10,633 nt of DNA from Candidatus Roizmanbacteria bacterium RIFCSPHIGHO2_02_FULL_43_11. Lineage in GTDB: Bacteria; Patescibacteriota; Microgenomatia; UBA1406; HO2-37-13b. The DNA lies in contig MFZT01000030.1 in assembly GCA_001789515.1 (NCBI GenBank), positions 1-10,633 on the forward strand. Direction: 5' to 3'. Under the pieces are notes generated by a model that made no database searches, was not told the DNA's origin, and saw only the letters and a program-made list of their open reading frames with translations. Shown here in pieces: positions 759-9,955 of this stretch (positions are counted from its first letter, which is position 1; every line of letters begins with the position of its first letter). The translations under genes were made by a program, and so were the position numbers.

Positions 759-1877
759 ATGGCAAAATTCTTTCAGAGATTCGCTGTGATTTTGTATGCA
801 ATCCTCATCGCTCTTCTTGCTCTCTATTCTTTTTCCCTCACTGATCCCAATATTACCTTTGTAAATCATGCTCTTTGGACCAATTTTCGAAATGTCATGG
901 TCGATTTCGGATATTATGATCGACCGCACTCTTGGCTAGCTTTCATTGCTCTCATTATTGCACTTTTTAGTTTCCACATGTATTTCGTTAAACACGCAAA
1001 AAAATATGCGCCCCTGCATATTGCGCTCGTTGCTGGACTGATACTTATCTTTGCCTATCCATTTCTTTCCCGCGATCTTTTTAACTACATGTTTGACGCA
1101 CGCATTTTGACTACCTACGGAGCAAATCCATATACGCATAGAGCAGCAGACTTTCCGGCTGATTCATGGCTGCGGTTTATGCACTGGACACACCGACCAT
1201 ATCCGTATGGGCCAATATTTTTACCACTCACACTCATCCCCTCACTCCTAAGTTTTGGAAAATTCGCAATGGGGTTCATACTTTTTAAGCTTTTATTTGT
1301 CGTTGCATATGTTTTCACCGTTTTGACATTACAAAAAAGAGATCGGACTTGGGCGATTTTTTTTGCGACTCACCCGCTTGTGTTGATTGAAGGACTTGTG
1401 AATGGTCATAACGATCTCATTTCAGTCTGGTTTGGATTGATGGGACTCCTTGCACTTAAAAACCGGCTCGCAGCAACTGCTTTATTTGGGCTATCGGCTG
1501 GGATTAAATATTTTACCTCAGCATTGTTTGCACTTTTGATCCCGCTTAAAAGAAACGTCGGAAGATATATCGCATTTGCCGGAGTTACCGCACCTGTTTT
1601 ATATATATCACTTACCGGCGAACCACAATCTTGGTATTATCTTAATTTTCTTATATTCATACCCTATTTTTTCGGTGGCCTTTCATCAACATATATCTTC
1701 TCCTTTGGTCTTCTTATGTCATATTATCCTTTTATCGCCCTTGGGGACTGGGGAAGACCTGGAAATACTGAGCTCAAGCACATGATTATAATCATATTTG
1801 CCCTACTGCAGATTGCGCATTATTTTTTCATGAAAAAATTCAGCAGAAGATGGAGTTTTATGCGAAAAGGAGCATAA
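759..1877 (+). CDS. GT-C membrane glycosyltransferase, MptA/B-GT87-like
   Basis: This 372-residue polytopic protein has hydrophobic segments at about 8-26, 58-77, 86-103, 152-190, 196-210, 218-234, 238-262, 269-286, 293-327 and 341-358. Landmarks match the polyprenol-phosphomannose-dependent mannosyltransferases (MptA/MptB) and GT87 relatives. These are SRDLFNY (104-110, D106 the likely catalytic acid on the first outer loop), GANPY (121-125), YPYGP (148-152) and NGHNDL (215-220). By family knowledge it would transfer a sugar from a polyprenyl-phosphate donor to a lipid-linked or protein-linked glycan on the outer face; mannose is only the family default. The start at 759 is taken because the first helix begins right after it and a -10 sits 7 bases upstream. 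The last 58 bases overlap the 3' end of the convergent GT2 gene, and the basic tail (KKFSRRWSFMRK) is written in that overlap. Superfamily confident, subfamily moderate. Confidence 0.85.
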   Translation: MAKFFQRFAVILYAILIALLALYSFSLTDPNITFVNHALWTNFRNVMVDFGYYDRPHSWLAFIALIIALFSFHMYFVKHAKKYAPLHIALVAGLILIFAYPFLSRDLFNYMFDARILTTYGANPYTHRAADFPADSWLRFMHWTHRPYPYGPIFLPLTLIPSLLSFGKFAMGFILFKLLFVVAYVFTVLTLQKRDRTWAIFFATHPLVLIEGLVNGHNDLISVWFGLMGLLALKNRLAATALFGLSAGIKYFTSALFALLIPLKRNVGRYIAFAGVTAPVLYISLTGEPQSWYYLNFLIFIPYFFGGLSSTYIFSFGLLMSYYPFIALGDWGRPGNTELKHMIIIIFALLQIAHYFFMKKFSRRWSFMRKGA

Positions 1878-2632
1878 CGTAAACCAAAGATAAGATGATT
1901 GCGTTTCAGAAATTTTTCATGAAGCCTCGATCCTGCTCCTCCTGTAGATTGAGCGTTTTTGTGCCAGATCACGATGGATGGATCATAGAGTAACTTTCCT
2001 GCGCGCTTTTTTATACGGGCACACCAGTCAGTGTCTTCATAGTACATAAAATATGACTCATCTATCATCCCAAATTTTTTCACTACATTTTCATGAAAGA
2101 CCATAAGGCATCCTGTCACAAAATCCGTTTCCTCGACCCGATTATATTGCCCCTGATCTACTTCGTCCACTCCTCGATGTAGACTCCAGGCATTTTTCCA
2201 GTCCATAACTCCGCCTGCATACCAAAGTACATTTCCTAGGTCAGCCTTGTCATATCGACCCTTATGAAACTCGTAGTCTTTTGCATAATAAATCTTTCCT
2301 CCAATAAGAGCTCGTGGGTGCTTTTCCAGTGCACTCTGGCAGGATTCAATGAAGTCCTCCGCCACAACAGTATCATTGTTCATAAAAACAAACTGCCGGT
2401 ATCCATCGTGCATTGCTTCTTTAAGACCAAGATTAAGCCCATACGCATATCCTTTATTTGGGCCTGTCATGACAGAGCAAAATGCAGGCCATGTATAGGA
2501 GGCCGGTTTTGTAGACAGATCTGCAACAAAAATATGAAATTTCCCAGATGTTTGCTTTTTAAAAGAGTTGAAAAAATCAGATAAATCAGCGTAGTTATTG
2601 TATACTACTGTTATTACTGCAATTGTATGCAT
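1820..2632 (-). CDS. GT2 glycosyltransferase, rhamnosyltransferase-like (WbbL type)
   Basis: This 270-residue GT-A enzyme has the expected order. The first strand is TIAVITVVYNNY (3-14), then NKGYAYGLNLG (59-69) for nucleotide-sugar binding and MNNDT (84-88) in the DxD metal-site position. TGCLM (173-177) follows, then YYEDTDWCAR (197-206) with the usual ED acidic pair, and IWHK (222-225). These are features of cytoplasmic-face family 2 enzymes related to dTDP-rhamnose:lipid-linked acceptor transferases; the sugar is not proved. I chose ATG 2632 because the fold's first strand starts two residues later and a perfect extended -10 ends 7 bases upstream. An in-frame ATG at 2665 would add 11 residues and has a GGAG motif 10 bases upstream, so it remains possible; a third ATG lies at 2641. 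The gene overlaps its neighbours at both ends: 6 bases at the start, 58 at the end. Confidence 0.9.
   Translation of the reverse strand: MHTIAVITVVYNNYADLSDFFNSFKKQTSGKFHIFVADLSTKPASYTWPAFCSVMTGPNKGYAYGLNLGLKEAMHDGYRQFVFMNNDTVVAEDFIESCQSALEKHPRALIGGKIYYAKDYEFHKGRYDKADLGNVLWYAGGVMDWKNAWSLHRGVDEVDQGQYNRVEETDFVTGCLMVFHENVVKKFGMIDESYFMYYEDTDWCARIKKRAGKLLYDPSIVIWHKNAQSTGGAGSRLHEKFLKRNHLIFGLRYAPFRIKLHLLLNFFMKK
1822..1839. repeat. Perfect 18-bp palindrome in a convergent gene overlap
   Basis: The sequence ATTTTTTCATGAAAAAAT equals its own reverse complement. It lies inside the 58-base tail-to-tail overlap of the genes at 759-1877 (+) and 1820-2632 (-). Read as codons, both strands give Phe-Phe-Met-Lys-Lys: residues 356-360 of the plus-strand protein and the last five residues of the minus-strand protein. 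It has A/T runs on both sides but no loop and only one G:C step per arm, so it would make a poor hairpin. A bidirectional terminator is conceivable but not supported. Confidence 0.85.
2601..2606 (+). promoter_or_regulatory. Putative -10 element for the gene at 2627
   Basis: TATACT (5/6 to consensus) lies 20 bases before the ATG at 2627, implying a leader of about 14 bases. It sits inside the coding region of the opposite-strand GT2 gene. No clear -35 is visible and the leader has no Shine-Dalgarno motif. The 9-mer TGTATACTA (2599-2607) recurs exactly at 4823-4831, 22 bases before the ATG at 4853. Confidence 0.35.
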
Positions 2633-2637
2633 ACAAT
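2622..2637. repeat. Perfect 16-bp palindrome holding two antiparallel start codons
   Basis: ATTGTATGCATACAAT is its own reverse complement. Its central ATGCAT contains the start codon of the plus-strand gene (2627-2629) and, on the other strand, the start codon of the GT2 gene (2632-2630). Because of the symmetry both proteins begin Met-His-Thr-Ile. It may double as a binding site for a dimeric regulator (inference). Confidence 0.9.
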
Positions 2638-4315
2638 CCATTATATCAAGGCGCGATTTGAACATCTAAAAAAGTCTCCATCACTTCTGTTTTTACTGGG
2701 CATCCCCATTATTACCTTGATAGTTATGGTCATAAATACTGGATATGTAAGTTATCCTGATGAATTCGTTAACCTTCTTGGAGGTAAGTATATCCTTGCA
2801 GGAAAATTGCCATATAGGGATTTCTTTGACCATCACTTGCCCCTTGCATGGTATCTGAGCGCCCCGATGCTGCTGATTTCATCTCAGTCATTTGTTATAT
2901 TTCGACTATTGTGGGCTGTTGCCGCTTTTTCGATTTTGTTTGGCGTTGGTCTCTATATACGGCAGGAACATAGGGAAATTGGGCATCTCTACTGGATCTT
3001 CCTTCTTTTATACCCATTTTTTGCTCTCTATTACTGGTTGCACTTGTATCTTGCCGATAGTCTCGCATTGATCTTTTTTTCATCAGCATTTTGGCTTTTG
3101 CTGAGCCAGACATATGCACCTCGCAAAAATTTTCGCACTGTAGTTTTCGCAGGTGTTATGGTATGGGCCCTTGTATTCTCCTCGTTAACATACCTCTACC
3201 TCGCTTTAGGCTTATATGCTTGGCTTGGATATCTTACATGGAAAGAATGGGGCATAAAGAAAGTCATGTATCTTGCAGGGCTTTGTTTATCTCCCTACAT
3301 CTTGTACGGAATGTATCTGTTTGTAAGTGGCACGTTTCAAGACTTTTGGACTGCTAACTTCACCTACAACTCGGAGTTATATTTAAGTCTTCCGAATTAC
3401 ACGCGAGGAACTCACTTTAATCCATTTAAATTTGTCTTAACACTCATCTTTAACTTTCACCAAACTTACTGGAAACAAGTTGTGGCAATTAAAGAATTTG
3501 ACATATACTTTCCTGTTGCCACGATGCTCGCTTGGAGCACTTTTGCCTTTCTTGCCTTGCTCTTTTTTGAGAATAAAATACTTGCACTCCTATTTTTCTT
3601 TATCCTATCTGTCTCTGCTCCGCGCAGCGACGTTTCTGATATTGATGAGACCAACTATCAAATCGCTGTTTATCTTGGACTTGGTTTGATTTCCGCACTT
3701 GTCAGCTTGTGGAGAGTAAAACAACTAAAATTTCAGGACGAATTATATGAAATATTCAGAAAACTTGCGACATTTTTTGTAGCTCTGTACCTGATCTTTG
3801 CCAGTATTTTCCTCATAAAAAATACTTATGACAAAACTTTCCAGCGCTATACACAGTTTTTGCCAAGCATTGGGGAGATAAAAGACTTTGCCAACTTTAC
3901 GCAGGACATTTTTCCAGGTGAGCAGCGCATCTACTGGGACGGCCCATACGAACCAACGGATTTATTTTACATTTCTGTTGATCAATTGCCTGGCAAGTAT
4001 ATCAGCCTTTTACCTCAATTTCGGGAAAACACCTACTTTGCATCAACCTTTATTGACCAGTTTGAGAAGAGCAAGCCTGCCATGATCATATATCTCCATC
4101 GTGCATCAATATTTAATACACCCGCAGATGAATTCGGAGCCTTTTTCCTTACGTGGATGAAGGGAAAATACGTGACTATTGACAGTCTTCAGAAATATAA
4201 GATCCTGAAATCTCCCACAAACTTTGGCGTTGGCGGAGATTTGTACTTTCGTGCTGATCTTGAAAGTCGAGTTATTCAAACACTGCTTGAGAAAGGCTAT
4301 ATTATTGAACGTTGA
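2627..4315 (+). CDS. PMT/ArnT-like GT-C membrane glycosyltransferase
   Basis: This 562-residue protein begins MHTIHYIKAR, then has a first membrane helix (about 18-37). The outer loop carries YPDEF (43-47, the Asp-Glu pair expected of GT-C enzymes), GGKYILAGKLPYRDFF (52-67) and DHHLPLAWYL (68-77). Further hydrophobic segments lie at about 86-110, 120-158, 171-203, 212-234, 264-276, 296-330, 344-361 and 379-397. A soluble domain (about 400-562), probably outside the cell, completes it. By family knowledge it transfers a sugar from a lipid-phosphate donor at the outer face; GT39 and GT83 are the nearest groups I recognise. No in-frame alternative start lies between 2627 and the first helix. Upstream the frame has no ATG, GTG or TTG before a stop at 2582, so ATG 2627 is well supported. 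It ends in TGA, overlapping the convergent small gene by 14 bases. Confidence 0.86.
   Translation: MHTIHYIKARFEHLKKSPSLLFLLGIPIITLIVMVINTGYVSYPDEFVNLLGGKYILAGKLPYRDFFDHHLPLAWYLSAPMLLISSQSFVIFRLLWAVAAFSILFGVGLYIRQEHREIGHLYWIFLLLYPFFALYYWLHLYLADSLALIFFSSAFWLLLSQTYAPRKNFRTVVFAGVMVWALVFSSLTYLYLALGLYAWLGYLTWKEWGIKKVMYLAGLCLSPYILYGMYLFVSGTFQDFWTANFTYNSELYLSLPNYTRGTHFNPFKFVLTLIFNFHQTYWKQVVAIKEFDIYFPVATMLAWSTFAFLALLFFENKILALLFFFILSVSAPRSDVSDIDETNYQIAVYLGLGLISALVSLWRVKQLKFQDELYEIFRKLATFFVALYLIFASIFLIKNTYDKTFQRYTQFLPSIGEIKDFANFTQDIFPGEQRIYWDGPYEPTDLFYISVDQLPGKYISLLPQFRENTYFASTFIDQFEKSKPAMIIYLHRASIFNTPADEFGAFFLTWMKGKYVTIDSLQKYKILKSPTNFGVGGDLYFRADLESRVIQTLLEKGYIIER
2640..2648 (-). promoter_or_regulatory. 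Consensus extended -10 of the GT2 gene, leaderless
   Basis: Read on the minus strand, TGATATAAT (2648 to 2640) is a perfect TATAAT with the TGn extension. Seven bases (2639-2633) separate it from the ATG at 2632, so transcription would begin at or beside the start codon. The -35 position with a 17-base spacer (2668 to 2663) reads TAGATG, a weak match, which is usual for extended -10 promoters. It lies within codons 5-8 of the opposite gene. Confidence 0.6.
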
Positions 4316-4852: not shown

Positions 4853-6499
4853 ATGAAACTTTCAGACTATAAAATTTCATTCGTTATTATTTGTATTTCT
4901 TCTTTAATCTTCACCTTTAATCTTTTTGTACATGCCGGCGAACCAGCTACCTTTGATAGTCCCACACACATTACAACCTTGTACCAGGTTGCTGAAGGAC
5001 TTAAAAGTGGGGAATTCCCTGTGACATGGTTGCAAAAATTCGCACATTATGGTGCCCCTATTCCCTTGTATGCTCACCAAACCACGATGTATTTTGGTGC
5101 AGTAATATCCCTCTTCCTCAAAGACCCAGTACTTAGTTCTAAAATTCTAGCTTTTATCTTTTCAGTCATAGGAGGGTGGGGGATGTATCTATTACTGCGC
5201 CGGCACACAGATCCTTTGCCCGCACTTGTTGGATCTATTCTTTTTATGTTTGCACCTTATCGTATATTAAACACTTATGTCCGCGGGGCTCTTCCTGAGT
5301 TCGCGGCACAATCCCTTGCCCCGTATCTTCTGCTCAGTATTCACATGTTTATCAACTCAAGAGAATTCCGGAGTCTTGTGTTTATTACCATTATCACAGC
5401 ACTTCTTGTGCTCACTCATACATTTATGATCGTTATTACAGCTCCATTTGCCCTTCTTTATACTCTTGCAGCACGTCCGACTATGCGCCAAGCAATAATA
5501 TTAGGCATTGCCGGTATTCTTGGAATAGCTCTTGCTGGTTATTATATAGTGCCTTTGATTACTGAAATTAATTATTTTTATTATGGGCTTGAGCCAAATC
5601 ACTATAAAGAGGGACAATTTTTACAACTTAAAAACTTTCTTTCATCCACTTGGCCTTATATTACAGAAACAGATCGCTTCACACGACCGCATGTACTGTT
5701 AGGAGGGTTGCTCGAGGGTATTATCGTACTTTTTTCAACAGCATACTACACATTGATTAAGCGTCCACATAATCTATCTTTGCCGTTTGTTTCACTTTTG
5801 GCTAGTCTTATCTACATTATTCTCATGCTTCCGATTTCTGAGCCTTTATACCAAGCAAGCTCGTTCTTGGGGAATATCCAGCATCCTTGGCGTATGATGG
5901 CAGGTTATTCGCTTGCCGTTTCTATTCTGGCAGCACATATTCTGCACGAAGTCCGTGCGCGAAAAGCTCAGGCATTGATAAGTATTGCTCTGTGTAGCCT
6001 TGTCATGTTCCTTGCTGCACCACAACTGTATGCGAAGAATTACACACTTTATCCCATTTCACATTACGCATTTACAAAGGAAAATCTCCATGGGAATCCT
6101 ATGGTCACTCTATGGGCAGGAGAGCCTGAGGATTATCCACGTGTCAAAGATTCCATACGTACTATCGAGGGCAGTGCAAAAATTCAGCAGTTGCTGTATG
6201 AAAACACTCGTAGGGAATACCACATCCGCGTTGATTCAGATGCTCGTTTTGTCAGTTATACATTTTATTTTCCAGGGTGGCACGTCAAATCAAATGGTAG
6301 AGAAGTGCCGATTGAATTTCAGGATATAAATTATCGAGGTCTTACCACATTCAAACTACCAAAAGGAGATCATAGGGTACTTATAGAGTTTGTCCCTACG
6401 AAAAAACGAATGCTTGGATTTGCATTTTCAGCAAGTGCTCTTGTTATGATTCTGCTCAGTTCGGTAGTATATAAGAAATATGAAAAAATTATTAACTGA
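4853..6499 (+). CDS. PTPS-related (PF10131-like) polytopic membrane protein
   Basis: This 548-residue membrane protein belongs to the family often labelled '6-pyruvoyl-tetrahydropterin synthase-related'. That name is misleading, since none of the pterin enzyme's motifs are here. After a first helix (about 8-27) comes an outer loop with DSPTH (35-39), GEFPVTW (53-59) and AHYGAPIPLY (64-73). APYRILNTYVRGALPE (134-149) is the strongest family hallmark. More helices follow to about residue 390, including QHPWRM (343-348) before a late helix. A predicted outer beta-rich domain (about 400-515, with FYFPGWHVKSNGREVPI at 471-487) and a last helix (about 518-537) complete it. The general plan resembles GT-C glycosyltransferases and YfhO-like proteins, so transfer or ligation of sugars at the outer face is the likeliest role (inference). 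The start is fixed by GAGGT before ATG 4853. Its last 20 bases overlap the next gene, implying translational coupling. Confidence 0.85.
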   Translation: MKLSDYKISFVIICISSLIFTFNLFVHAGEPATFDSPTHITTLYQVAEGLKSGEFPVTWLQKFAHYGAPIPLYAHQTTMYFGAVISLFLKDPVLSSKILAFIFSVIGGWGMYLLLRRHTDPLPALVGSILFMFAPYRILNTYVRGALPEFAAQSLAPYLLLSIHMFINSREFRSLVFITIITALLVLTHTFMIVITAPFALLYTLAARPTMRQAIILGIAGILGIALAGYYIVPLITEINYFYYGLEPNHYKEGQFLQLKNFLSSTWPYITETDRFTRPHVLLGGLLEGIIVLFSTAYYTLIKRPHNLSLPFVSLLASLIYIILMLPISEPLYQASSFLGNIQHPWRMMAGYSLAVSILAAHILHEVRARKAQALISIALCSLVMFLAAPQLYAKNYTLYPISHYAFTKENLHGNPMVTLWAGEPEDYPRVKDSIRTIEGSAKIQQLLYENTRREYHIRVDSDARFVSYTFYFPGWHVKSNGREVPIEFQDINYRGLTTFKLPKGDHRVLIEFVPTKKRMLGFAFSASALVMILLSSVVYKKYEKIIN

Positions 6500-7625
6500 G
6501 AAACGCACTTTAGAATGGGGGAATGTGTTTCTTGTCAGTGTCCTTCCTGTGTTTGCAATCTTGCTTCCTTTTGCTCTTCACCTTTCGGATCTCTTCTTTC
6601 TTCACATCCCTGAACCTGGAATGCTGAATATTTTAAAAAACTGGGATGGACCTCATTACATTATTGTTGCACGAACATGGTATGATTTAGAAGCTATCAC
6701 AAAGCTCCTTTTTACAAGCGTCCCATCAACATATTATCCTGCCCACTTCCCTCTATATCCAGCATTTATTGCTCTGTTTGCCCCCCTTTTAGGGTATTTC
6801 TATGCCGGCCTTTTTGTGAATATTTCGTTTGGTGTTCTGTTAAATATTCTTTTTTATGAAATTGCAAAAGGATATACTAAGAGAGCTCTCTTTCTTACTG
6901 CAGTGTTCACGGTGTTTCCGGGGCGCTTCCTGGTAACTCGTGCTATTCTTGCCCCAGAAACCATGATGGTTTTTTTTATGCTTTTATCACTGTATTGTTG
7001 GGAGAAGCACCGATACGTTCAAAGTAGCGTGTGGGGGAGTTTGGGAATTCTAACGAAAATTAAAGCAGGTTTTTTGCTGCCAGCTTATATTGCATCAAGT
7101 CTGGAAGAGATGTTTCTTAAGCATAAAAACCTACCGGCAAAGCTTTTATGGACTGCCCTTATACCATTAACCCTACTTGCCCTTTTTACTTTCTTTAAAT
7201 TAAGAACAGGGGACTTCTTTGCCTTTCTCAATGCTGAAAAGGGAAATAATTTATTTGTGGCTTTTCCTTTTTCACAATTCAATTCTGCATCCACCTGGAT
7301 TGGGACCGCCTGGATCGAGGATGTTGTTTTCTACTTTGCAGGAATGATTATACTTACTGCCACTTTATGGAAATCTCAAGAAAATAGAAGCTGGTTTTAC
7401 TTCTCTCTTTTTTATACAGCTTTTCTTATTTTTGTACCACAGCGGGACATAACAAGATTTTCATTTCCACTCTACCCCCTCTTTCTCCTTACTTTTCATA
7501 AATTTTTCACCTCAAGAGAGTGGAAGATAGCGTTTGCATTTCTTTTACCTGCAATATATCTTTATGCAATTAATTTCATATTGCAGAACCAGGCACCAAT
7601 TTCCAATTACAGTCCATTTTTATAG
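6480..7625 (+). CDS. PIG-V-like (GT76/COG5542-type) GT-C mannosyltransferase homologue
   Basis: This 381-residue polytopic protein has NWDGPHY (54-60) after the first helix (about 15-34), AHFPLYP (88-94), APE (158-160) and RDITRFSFPLYPL (322-334). These are the landmarks of the PIG-V/GPI mannosyltransferase II family, in which the Asp of the WDGxHY motif is taken as catalytic. Other hydrophobic segments lie at about 95-127, 137-148, 161-173, 184-205, 221-238, 284-296, 305-319, 328-340 and 349-367. Eukaryotic members add a mannose from dolichol-phosphate-mannose; bacterial members are common near surface glycan genes and probably use polyprenyl-phosphate sugars. The acceptor is unknown. ATG 6480 overlaps the end of the PTPS-related gene by 20 bases, so the pair is probably co-transcribed and coupled. 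Twelve bases separate its TAG from the stop of the convergent GT2 gene, with no terminator hairpin visible. Confidence 0.85.
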   Translation: MKKLLTEKRTLEWGNVFLVSVLPVFAILLPFALHLSDLFFLHIPEPGMLNILKNWDGPHYIIVARTWYDLEAITKLLFTSVPSTYYPAHFPLYPAFIALFAPLLGYFYAGLFVNISFGVLLNILFYEIAKGYTKRALFLTAVFTVFPGRFLVTRAILAPETMMVFFMLLSLYCWEKHRYVQSSVWGSLGILTKIKAGFLLPAYIASSLEEMFLKHKNLPAKLLWTALIPLTLLALFTFFKLRTGDFFAFLNAEKGNNLFVAFPFSQFNSASTWIGTAWIEDVVFYFAGMIILTATLWKSQENRSWFYFSLFYTAFLIFVPQRDITRFSFPLYPLFLLTFHKFFTSREWKIAFAFLLPAIYLYAINFILQNQAPISNYSPFL

Positions 7626-7637
7626 ACATACATTGCC

Positions 7638-8516
7638 TCACTTAGACAGTTTCATCCAAAGATACAGAAATAAATTTTTGCCATCTATTTTCTTCACTTC
7701 CATCCAATGCAGTGTCTCATATAAGGCCCTAGAAAAAAACTGAGCAGGAACTTTCTCAATATGCTCTTCAGCACTTCTATACTTTCTCCCCTCCCACACA
7801 TACACGTACACCTGAAAGTAATACACAAGCTGTGAAAAGGCCATCACAAATCCATGCATGCCGTCTTTATATCCCTCATCCTTAAAGTAGCGGCTGATAA
7901 ACTCTGATAAGCCTTTTTGCAGTGCGTGCATGAGTGTCAAATCTGGGAGGTTTTTTGCCTCTGCTTTTGCGTACCTGTATGACTTTTCAAGATATTGATC
8001 ATAGGTTTGGTAGTTATGATGCTCTAGCGCAAGGCTCTCTACAGCAGGAACCAGATGTTCCCTTCCTTTTATTTCTGGCTGGGTATGAATATGTGTATCC
8101 CATTTTACGAACCCTTTTTTGAAAAATCTTACCTGATAATCTGGCCACCAGCGCGAATGTTGCATCCAGTGTCCCAAAATGATATTTTTCCTGGGTATCG
8201 TAAAGTAATCACAGTCAGACATGTGTGTTTTTATATAGGCCTGCAAATCTTTTGTCAAGATTTCATCCGGATCAATGTATAGAACCCAGGTGCCATGAGA
8301 TTCGTCAATAATTTTTTGGCGGAACAGCTCAATATAACTTGGAGTAGGATATGTTAAAATCCTAACATTTTTTATTGCTTTGATCTGTTTCAACATATCC
8401 TGTGACATTCCGATATCTGCTACAACTATTTCATCAGCAAAATCTCGTAAGGATTGAAGTGTTTTAAGAGGCGTCTCTCGCTCATCCTTGATGGCAACAA
8501 CAGCAGATATCTTCAT
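7638..8516 (-). CDS. GT2 glycosyltransferase, WaaE/KdtX-like
   Basis: This 292-residue GT-A enzyme begins MKISAVVAIKDER (1-13). LYIDPDE (79-85) carries the metal-binding acidic residues. HWMQHSRWWPDYQVRFF (116-132) and DTHIHTQPEI (140-149) are typical of the group containing the LPS-core glucosyltransferase WaaE/KdtX and related beta-glycosyltransferases. LEHHNYQTYDQYL (164-176) continues the family pattern, and the C-terminal part (about 195-292) is helical and aromatic, probably membrane-associated. One oddity is that the usual DxGSxD loop after the second strand reads ADIGMSQDM (33-41), so the Gly-Ser pair is altered. It most likely adds a sugar from a nucleotide donor to a lipid-linked acceptor on the cytoplasmic side. 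Its ATG overlaps the flippase stop codon as ATGA (8516-8513), the classic coupling arrangement. Cytoplasmic synthesis followed by flipping is a sensible pairing. Confidence 0.88.
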   Translation of the reverse strand: MKISAVVAIKDERETPLKTLQSLRDFADEIVVADIGMSQDMLKQIKAIKNVRILTYPTPSYIELFRQKIIDESHGTWVLYIDPDEILTKDLQAYIKTHMSDCDYFTIPRKNIILGHWMQHSRWWPDYQVRFFKKGFVKWDTHIHTQPEIKGREHLVPAVESLALEHHNYQTYDQYLEKSYRYAKAEAKNLPDLTLMHALQKGLSEFISRYFKDEGYKDGMHGFVMAFSQLVYYFQVYVYVWEGRKYRSAEEHIEKVPAQFFSRALYETLHWMEVKKIDGKNLFLYLWMKLSK

Positions 8517-9955
8517 GATGATTTGAACTCATTATATAACTCAGTGATCAGATTTTCTTTAAAGATCAGAAGAAGTGCGGCATAATAGCTTACAGCTCCA
8601 ACTACAATCATGATAACCGCGCTTACAACCCCCATATGCAATGTTCCTGCCTTGACTAGAAGAAGCATAACTGCCATGACAGCTCCTGATACAACATACC
8701 GCAGCATACTACCTAAAAAATCGAATGGTATTAAGGATCGTGCTTTAAGGATCACAATAACACAGGAAAGGGAGAGCATGAGGACAGTCAGGGGAAATCC
8801 ATACATGCCAAACATGCGAGTCAATGGAATGATGAGCAGCCAGGTTAAAACAGTCCAAGCGAGCATAAATGTTAACGAGATTTTTACTTTGCCAATGCCA
8901 TTGAAAAAGTTGATAAACGGTGTTGAATAACTGGACAGTAATCCTGAAAATACAAAGATATAGAAAATCGGCAAAGCTGGACGCCATTTTTCGTATTTCG
9001 GTAATATATCCACGATCAGCGGCATGAGAACAATCATCCCCAAACTTGCTGGAATTAAAATCATACTTTGATAACGAATAATTTTTTGAATAACATTTCT
9101 TTGCTTCTCATGATCATGCTGTATTCGGGAAAAAATCGGAAAGACCACACGGCTGATGTTGTCCATGATAATTCTCAACATACTCTCAGCCCATCTTTTT
9201 GCCCAGCCAATATATCCTAAAACCTGAAAACCAACGATCTTCCCCAAGAATAAATTAACCAGTTCATCCTTAAAAAGCGCAAGGAAAGACATTGATTGAA
9301 ATGGGACACCGTACGATAACAGATGCTTTGCACTTTTACGAGAAATTCCTACTCTAGGCATCCAGAAAGAGATGCTATACATCACAACAAGACCAATTAC
9401 AGCTCTTATGAGCACCCCATATGCAAAGCTGAGCAATCCAAAGCCTTTAATTGCAAGCACTGCCACAACGACATAGAAGCAGGTATTTTCAATTACCTGC
9501 ACAAGCACAATTTTGTGAAATCTTACTGAGCGCTCAAGAAAAACCGAGGGTATGGTTTTCAATGAAGAAATGAAAAAACTCGCCAACAAAGCCCAATAAA
9601 GGATACGCCCATCAAACCCAAGCTCATAGAAGCGTAGAATGGGATCAGTCAGCAGAAATCCAATAATAATAAGTGATACAATAATCCCCTGTTGAATGGT
9701 AAAAGCTGTTGATACATCTTCATCCGAGATATCGTTACGTTGAATCAAAGATGCTGCAAGGCCTATATCAGAAAAATAATTGAGAAACGCAATAATTGAG
9801 AGAACTGTGATGTAAATGCCAAAAATTTCCGGGCTTAAGTAGATCGTTAATACGACGTTTGCCGCAAAACCAAGCACTGCTGAATATCCGCTCTGGAAGA
9901 AGAGACTCAAAGTACTCACTATGCTTTTGCGCTTAAGCGTTGCATCTTGTGCCAT
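8513..9955 (-). CDS. Wzx/TuaB-type oligosaccharide-lipid flippase (MOP superfamily)
   Basis: This 480-residue protein has about twelve to fourteen hydrophobic segments and the normal length for the Wzx/RfbX/TuaB group. The N-terminal part reads KRKSIVSTLSLFFQSG (8-23), LSPEIFGIYI (40-49) and FSDIGLAASLIQR (61-73), the standard first-helix region. QVLGYIGWAKRW (244-255) and RVVFPIFSRIQHD (269-281) sit in the central region, followed by paired helices to the C-terminus. It should move a polyprenyl-pyrophosphate-linked oligosaccharide from the inner to the outer face of the membrane. The start at 9955 is chosen because the conserved KRK lies eight residues in. The gene then overlaps the upstream PTPS-related gene by 37 bases, and it overlaps the downstream GT2 gene by 4, so all three are probably one transcript. 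No Shine-Dalgarno motif is evident, consistent with coupling. Confidence 0.93.
   Translation of the reverse strand: MAQDATLKRKSIVSTLSLFFQSGYSAVLGFAANVVLTIYLSPEIFGIYITVLSIIAFLNYFSDIGLAASLIQRNDISDEDVSTAFTIQQGIIVSLIIIGFLLTDPILRFYELGFDGRILYWALLASFFISSLKTIPSVFLERSVRFHKIVLVQVIENTCFYVVVAVLAIKGFGLLSFAYGVLIRAVIGLVVMYSISFWMPRVGISRKSAKHLLSYGVPFQSMSFLALFKDELVNLFLGKIVGFQVLGYIGWAKRWAESMLRIIMDNISRVVFPIFSRIQHDHEKQRNVIQKIIRYQSMILIPASLGMIVLMPLIVDILPKYEKWRPALPIFYIFVFSGLLSSYSTPFINFFNGIGKVKISLTFMLAWTVLTWLLIIPLTRMFGMYGFPLTVLMLSLSCVIVILKARSLIPFDFLGSMLRYVVSGAVMAVMLLLVKAGTLHMGVVSAVIMIVVGAVSYYAALLLIFKENLITELYNEFKSS

Follow-up and report, generated by a model that had tools for sequence, protein, structure and literature searches.

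A putative leaderless promoter inside the divergent gene at an interlocked pair of gene starts in Candidatus Roizmanbacteria

In Candidatus Roizmanbacteria bacterium RIFCSPHIGHO2_02_FULL_43_11, two divergent genes start on the same six bases of DNA, and these bases form the centre of a perfect palindrome. Does this symmetry serve a regulator of both genes, or does another signal hold the two starts together? The DNA analysed here (the window, 10,633 nucleotides) is one of the 51 contigs that make up a 708,812-base genome, which we call G000. Strands alternate along the glycan gene cluster of the window, and neighbouring open reading frames overlap at 1820-1877, 4302-4315, 6480-6499, 8513-8516 and 9919-9955 (by 58, 14, 20, 4 and 37 bp, respectively).

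Two genes and their shared start

The sequence ATTGTATGCATACAAT at 2622-2637 is self-complementary throughout its 16 bp and contains both start codons (Table 1). The plus-strand frame, with its ATG at 2627-2629, encodes 562 residues beginning with MHTIHYIK, and the minus-strand frame, with its ATG at 2632-2630, encodes MHTIAVITVVYNN. The initial annotation had described a perfect palindrome, antiparallel starts within ATGCAT, two proteins beginning with Met-His-Thr-Ile and no intergenic space between them. The sequence and the translated frames agree with it on all these points, and interlocked starts are conserved in relatives.

Table 1. Coordinates of features at the junction (positions in the window)
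Feature	Position	Strand	Basis or remark
GT2 glycosyltransferase gene (270 aa, start at 2632)	1820..2632	-	Pfam PF00535; 143 of 144 genomes searched have relatives
Multi-pass membrane protein, 562 aa, probable GT-C glycosyltransferase (family A)	2627..4315	+	AlphaFold2 model, PDB fold matches
Perfect 16-bp palindrome ATTGTATGCATACAAT	2622..2637	none	Among 27 head-to-head junctions, in G000 only
ATGCAT, overlapping start codons of GT-C (+, 2627) and GT2 (-, 2632)	2627..2632	none	Sequence
Extended -10 box TTGATATAAT of GT2	2640..2649	-	In GT-C codons 5-8 (CAT TAT ATC AAG = H Y I K)
7-nt spacer from -10 hexamer to GT2 ATG; predicted transcription start 2632-2633	2633..2639	-	Spacer conserved
Candidate -10 TATACT for GT-C, 20 nt before ATG, weak	2601..2606	+	Position not conserved
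Candidate -10 TATTAC for GT-C, 9 nt before ATG, weak	2612..2617	+	Sequence not conserved

The minus-strand protein, GT2, matches Pfam family PF00535 (Glycos_transf_2) at E 6.5e-13, with 49.4 bits against a cut-off of 23.3. Its frame contains further in-frame ATGs at 2641 and 2665. We rejected the former because it overlaps the conserved -10 box described below and many relatives have Ile there (e.g. G020, G021, G034), and the latter because it is not common to relatives. The start at 2632, as initially annotated, is thus the one that relatives favour, rather than one at 2665.

No Pfam match was obtained for the plus-strand protein, nor for any of 14 members of its family at E 0.05. The AlphaFold2 model (mean pLDDT 83.6, pTM 0.84) has its nearest PDB folds in chains of the GT-C enzymes Pmt4, oligosaccharyltransferase and DPY19; one match only has E below 0.001, and TM is 0.27-0.40 for the first twelve. 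Judged from this model, the protein is likely, though not proven, to be a GT-C glycosyltransferase, and we refer to its gene as GT-C. Relatives (family A) occur in 23 of the 144 genomes searched. A scan for named relatives with the single protein found none; those obtained by an alignment-based scan belong in 12 of 17 cases to Candidatus Roizmanbacteria, the rest being titled Patescibacteria, Microgenomates or bacterium.

Palindrome and -10 box in related junctions

Junction reading covered genomes G000-G083 of the 144 searched, and class-level genomes beyond G083 were left out. The region upstream of the best GT2 match was read in 69 of these 84 genomes. Fourteen junctions stand outside the read set (G007, G009, G014, G017, G039, G041, G043, G044, G050, G066, G070, G074, G075 and G079), and G001, the only genome in the set from the same genus as G000, was excluded since a stretch of N precedes its GT2 match. 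We classified 27 junctions as head-to-head, for which the opposing open frame had to span 600 nt or more and have an ATG near the GT2 match. Some of the other 42 contexts are not co-directional. The genes diverge around a repeat in G013, G048, G051 and G060 and around a gap in G011; in G022 the start is interlocked and TATACT is present, but the opposing frame is interrupted; and in G076 a contig edge cuts the context short.

At the junction two gene starts stand face to face. In 25 of the 27 head-to-head junctions, drawn from 18 genera of the order, the two starts either directly adjoin each other or share 6, 9 or 12 bp. Among these in-register junctions the interlock amounts to 9 bp in 14, to 0 bp in five, to 12 bp in another five and to 6 bp in G000 alone. 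The gene opposing GT2 belongs to GT-C family A in nine of them and to a second membrane family, B, in sixteen.

The palindrome does not follow this conservation. The initial annotation had read it as a symmetric site for a dimeric regulator of both genes; the junctions of relatives contradict this, since it is present in one of 27 head-to-head GT2 junctions, that of G000, and the 24 other in-register junctions keep both starts without the symmetry. A scan of 40 bases around the start of the GT2 match gave a longest perfect palindrome of 16 bp for G000 and of 4-10 bp for the remaining 26 junctions (in G024 the GT2 start lies just outside the scan, and two consecutive outer pairs only match there). 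Beyond the start codons, 62 of 240 outer pairs are symmetric in the 24 other junctions, which is the chance level given 0.259 per pair from composition. Consecutive outer pairs number five in G000 and at most two in every other junction. Among the junctions compared, symmetry is thus not kept beyond coding need.

How unusual is the palindrome by itself? Base composition predicts 0.21 palindromes of at least 16 bp in the window and 200 first-order Markov simulations predict 0.185, with at least one perfect palindrome of this length in 17% of simulations. The window contains two, one at 2622-2637 (16 bp) and one at 1822-1839 (18 bp). The latter, ATTTTTTCATGAAAAAAT, lies within the 58-bp tail overlap of a GT87 gene (plus strand, 759-1877) and GT2 (minus strand, 1820-2632). 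Because a 6-bp overlap of two start codons yields ATGCAT, the extra symmetry is confined to the outer five pairs, and for one junction named beforehand these match with a probability of about 0.0012. The palindrome is unusual for a single chosen site, but it was noticed post hoc and is without conservation. Compared with the related junctions, it is probably lineage-specific and coincidental, an accident for which the 6-bp start overlap and a chance match of five flanking pairs suffice.

The aligned junctions point to a different conserved signal, an extended -10 box at 2640-2649, just outside the palindrome. Exactly 7 nt separate the end of the box (consensus TTGATATAAT) from the GT2 ATG in 24 of 25 in-register junctions; in the exception, G019, the spacer is 10 nt. 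The box reads (C/T)TGATATAAT in 23 of the 25, CTGATATACT in G073 and GTGCTATAAT in G012. This exact (C/T)TGATATAAT form is present in 23/27 head-to-head junctions versus 1/42 other GT2 contexts, the single case being G076, where the contig ends beside a family B fragment; some TATAAT is found nearby in 7 of these 42. Two of the 27 junctions have no in-register box next to GT2. In G049 a repeat separates GT2 from the opposing gene, and in G068 GT2 faces a different gene and TATAAT-N7-ATG is kept in another register.

On the GT-C strand the box is read as x-Tyr-Ile, always in frame (with Ser for Ile in G012). The Tyr codon over the box is TAT in 25/25 junctions versus 72% of Tyr elsewhere in the same genes, and the Ile codon is ATC in 24/24 versus 27%, kinship of the genomes being ignored in both comparisons. 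The start of GT-C shifts by 0-12 bp while the distance between the box and the GT2 ATG stays fixed.

We rejected common descent of families A and B as the source of the shared N-terminus, as hhalign detected no homology (probability 0.7%, E 0.083, profiles of 14 and 9 sequences). Both families have TATATC or TATAGC near the start where they abut GT2. In family A, 9/9 genes abutting GT2 have it versus 0/10 not abutting; in family B, it occurs in 16/16 abutting genes and 4/4 repeat-displaced ones (genus g13) and in 0/10 others. Among the ten others are L155, which loses its N-terminus at a contig end, and G074, the clearest exception, in which a family B gene without the motif faces GT2 head-to-head and the two matches are 38 nt apart. 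Family A matches at contig edges or partial (L017, L022-L025) and family B matches lacking a locus were excluded from these counts. G000 itself carries a family B relative elsewhere (G000:C8:12495-13874), with 31% identity to the G021 protein.

Genus g13 represents a special case. In five of its genomes (G013, G048, G049, G051, G060) the box and GT2 are separated by repeat-like sequence. These genomes retain the box (TGATATAAT in four of them, GCTATAAT in G051), but 7 nt beyond it the triplet reads AGA or AAA and no longer ATG in 5/5. This pattern fits an ATG that once served a leaderless mRNA and was lost when GT2 started further down; the loss may be a single ancestral event. The g13 insertions upstream of GT2 (L112, L048, L100, L101, L102) differ, several having the form GTCATTCC...GGAATGAC. 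A dispersed palindromic repeat, AACTAGTTATAACTAGTT, was noted in 4 of 10 sampled contigs of G000 (L070 2030, L071 1132, L072 3159/3169, L074 1502).

A proposed mechanism and its rivals

We propose that GT2 is transcribed leaderless from an extended -10 promoter embedded in the divergent GT-C gene and that the palindrome is accidental, and we assign this reading a probability of about 0.75. The box at plus-strand positions 2640-2649, within the first codons of GT-C, would be the GT2 promoter. From the interlock, the box, its spacing, the codon bias and the -10 enrichment (see below), all of them readable in the DNA itself, we infer that RNA polymerase starts about 7 nt past the box, at the GT2 ATG (2632) or one base before. 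The resulting mRNA would have no leader and so would need no Shine-Dalgarno (SD) site; no purine-rich SD string was seen when the 20 nt before 2632 were read by eye. A leaderless gene should have its -10 box ending some 5-9 nt before the start, and GT2 of G000 does, with TATAAT-N7-ATG. GT-C would initiate on the same few bases in the opposite direction, probably from a promoter inside GT2, and its N-terminus (x-Tyr-Ile) would be set by the GT2 promoter. Because the GT-C start is 0-12 bp from the GT2 start and points in the opposite direction, two polymerases would hardly fit there together.

The promoter of GT-C is less distinct. No conserved one was found across the 25 junctions, and G000 offers the weak candidates of Table 1. 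A perfect TATAAT precedes the GT-C ATG by 6 nt in 4/25 junctions (G030, G045, G047, G063) and by 9 nt in G034, so that a local GT-C promoter probably exists at least there. Further, TATAAT occurs 31-40 nt before the GT-C ATG in 16/25 junctions, opposite Asn-Tyr codons of GT2. AAT-TAT is used at this site in 15/25 cases versus 11.9 expected (in other contexts 8/16 versus 7.6); codon choice gives no support, and we do not claim a promoter there.

Several other explanations can be imagined. If the palindrome were an operator, a dimeric regulator would bind 2622-2637 and control both genes. Perfect symmetry centred on the double start suggests as much, as does the rarity of such palindromes, of which about 0.2 are expected in the window; yet the other 26 head-to-head junctions lack it, outer symmetry is at the chance rate, and none of ten ORFs scanned in the window has a regulator match in Pfam. 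We rejected the palindrome as a conserved operator, and an operator at 2622-2637 seems to us extremely improbable. It is also conceivable that x-Tyr-Ile is kept for the sake of the GT-C protein, for example for membrane insertion, with TATAAT on the opposite strand as a by-product. The position of the motif in coding sequence, always in frame, agrees with this. Such a need of the protein would not account for its absence from members that do not abut GT2 (0/10 in family A, 0/10 in family B), for the exclusive use of ATC, for a spacing to the GT2 ATG that is fixed while the GT-C start moves, or for TATAAT-N7-ATG persisting in G068 in a different register, and we regard it as highly unlikely.

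Alternatively, GT-C might possess no promoter of its own and be read antisense through GT2 from the upstream GT87 gene (759-1877), leaving the junction promoter to GT2 only. An arrangement of this type is called a noncontiguous operon. Plus-strand genes at 759-1877, 2627-4315, 4853-6499 and 6480-7625 are indeed interrupted by minus-strand genes, and the search for a conserved GT-C promoter was negative; the TATAAT sequences 6 or 9 nt before the GT-C ATG in five genomes speak against read-through, which we hold to be unlikely. The embedded leaderless promoter of GT2 could also be part of something more elaborate. Two face-to-face leaderless starts could constitute a built-in exclusive switch, in which polymerase at one start covers the other, so that at a given moment only one of the two transcripts, GT2 or GT-C, is made in a cell; two unrelated membrane families would have been captured opposite the GT2 promoter, their N-terminus being written by it. 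We hold this extension to be unlikely as well; if true, surface glycan would vary from cell to cell without any regulator.

Known systems and probable leaderless starts in the order

In leaderless bacterial genes a -10 (TA-like) box lies some 10-12 bp ahead of the start codon, according to the available parts of two surveys (Zheng 2011 PMC3160421; Nakagawa 2017 PMC5397173). GT2 resembles the genes described there in having a TATAAT-like box that would place the transcription start at the ATG, and no SD site. It differs from them in that the box lies in coding sequence of a divergent gene with an overlapping start and is retained across 18 genera of an uncultured group, which these parts of the surveys do not mention (PMC3160421, PMC5397173). 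Bidirectional promoters of E. coli, as far as the accessible portion of the account describes them, have symmetric -10 elements and start sites that diverge, most often at a distance of 18 bp; binding one way prevents binding the other way (PMC12825309). Two opposite transcripts from a short DNA stretch and potential competition of polymerases are common to both systems; unlike what that portion describes, GT2 and GT-C have face-to-face geometry, and no symmetric bidirectional promoter is seen at their junction. Counted from the GT-C ATG, the GT2 box begins 13 nt downstream, on the wrong side for divergent starts, and a polymerase using it in reverse could therefore not make a full GT-C mRNA.

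Beck and Warren reportedly included face-to-face divergent (overlapping) promoters in their classification. As in that class, the promoters of GT2 and GT-C would point at each other and the transcripts overlap at their 5' ends; the GT2 side is clear, and the GT-C side shows TATAAT-N6-ATG in 4/25 junctions and only candidates in G000. What sets the junction apart from that class is that translation and, presumably, transcription start at the same points, and that the promoters would be located in coding DNA. The junction would thus combine leaderless genes with face-to-face promoters, both of known kinds.

To our knowledge, expression signals of the uncultured Candidate Phyla Radiation (CPR) have hardly been measured. 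The junction provides an RNA-free comparative test, in which a promoter constrains the N-terminus of the opposing protein across 18 genera. It also calls for caution: in such genomes, start prediction based on SD sites may put starts in the wrong place, and conservation of an N-terminus can reflect a promoter on the opposite strand.

In the open-licence literature, searched in part among the best matches listed, we found no account of leaderless mRNA from CPR/Patescibacteria. With genes called from their first ATG rather than from measured starts, TATAAT ends 4-10 nt before that ATG in 29/189 genes in 200 kb of G019 versus 0.65 expected (internal ATGs 11/3222), and in 10/123 genes in 121 kb of G000 plus the junction locus versus 0.26 expected (4/1903). 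SD-like strings are not enriched in either sample (G019, 14/189 genes versus 380/3222 internal ATGs; G000, 8/123 versus 240/1903). The 3' end of the G000 16S rRNA gave no match to the search string used; in the five relatives whose 3' end was located the anti-SD is intact, so SD initiation may also occur. The sampled DNA suggests that leaderless starts are common in the order. Published surveys count TA-like signals at such a distance as leaderless genes (PMC3160421, PMC5397173), and the available part of one of them adds that AT-rich bias alone is no proof of a leaderless gene (PMC5397173). YchF, a protein that favours leaderless translation, is retained, according to the accessible part of a further account (PMC12641178).
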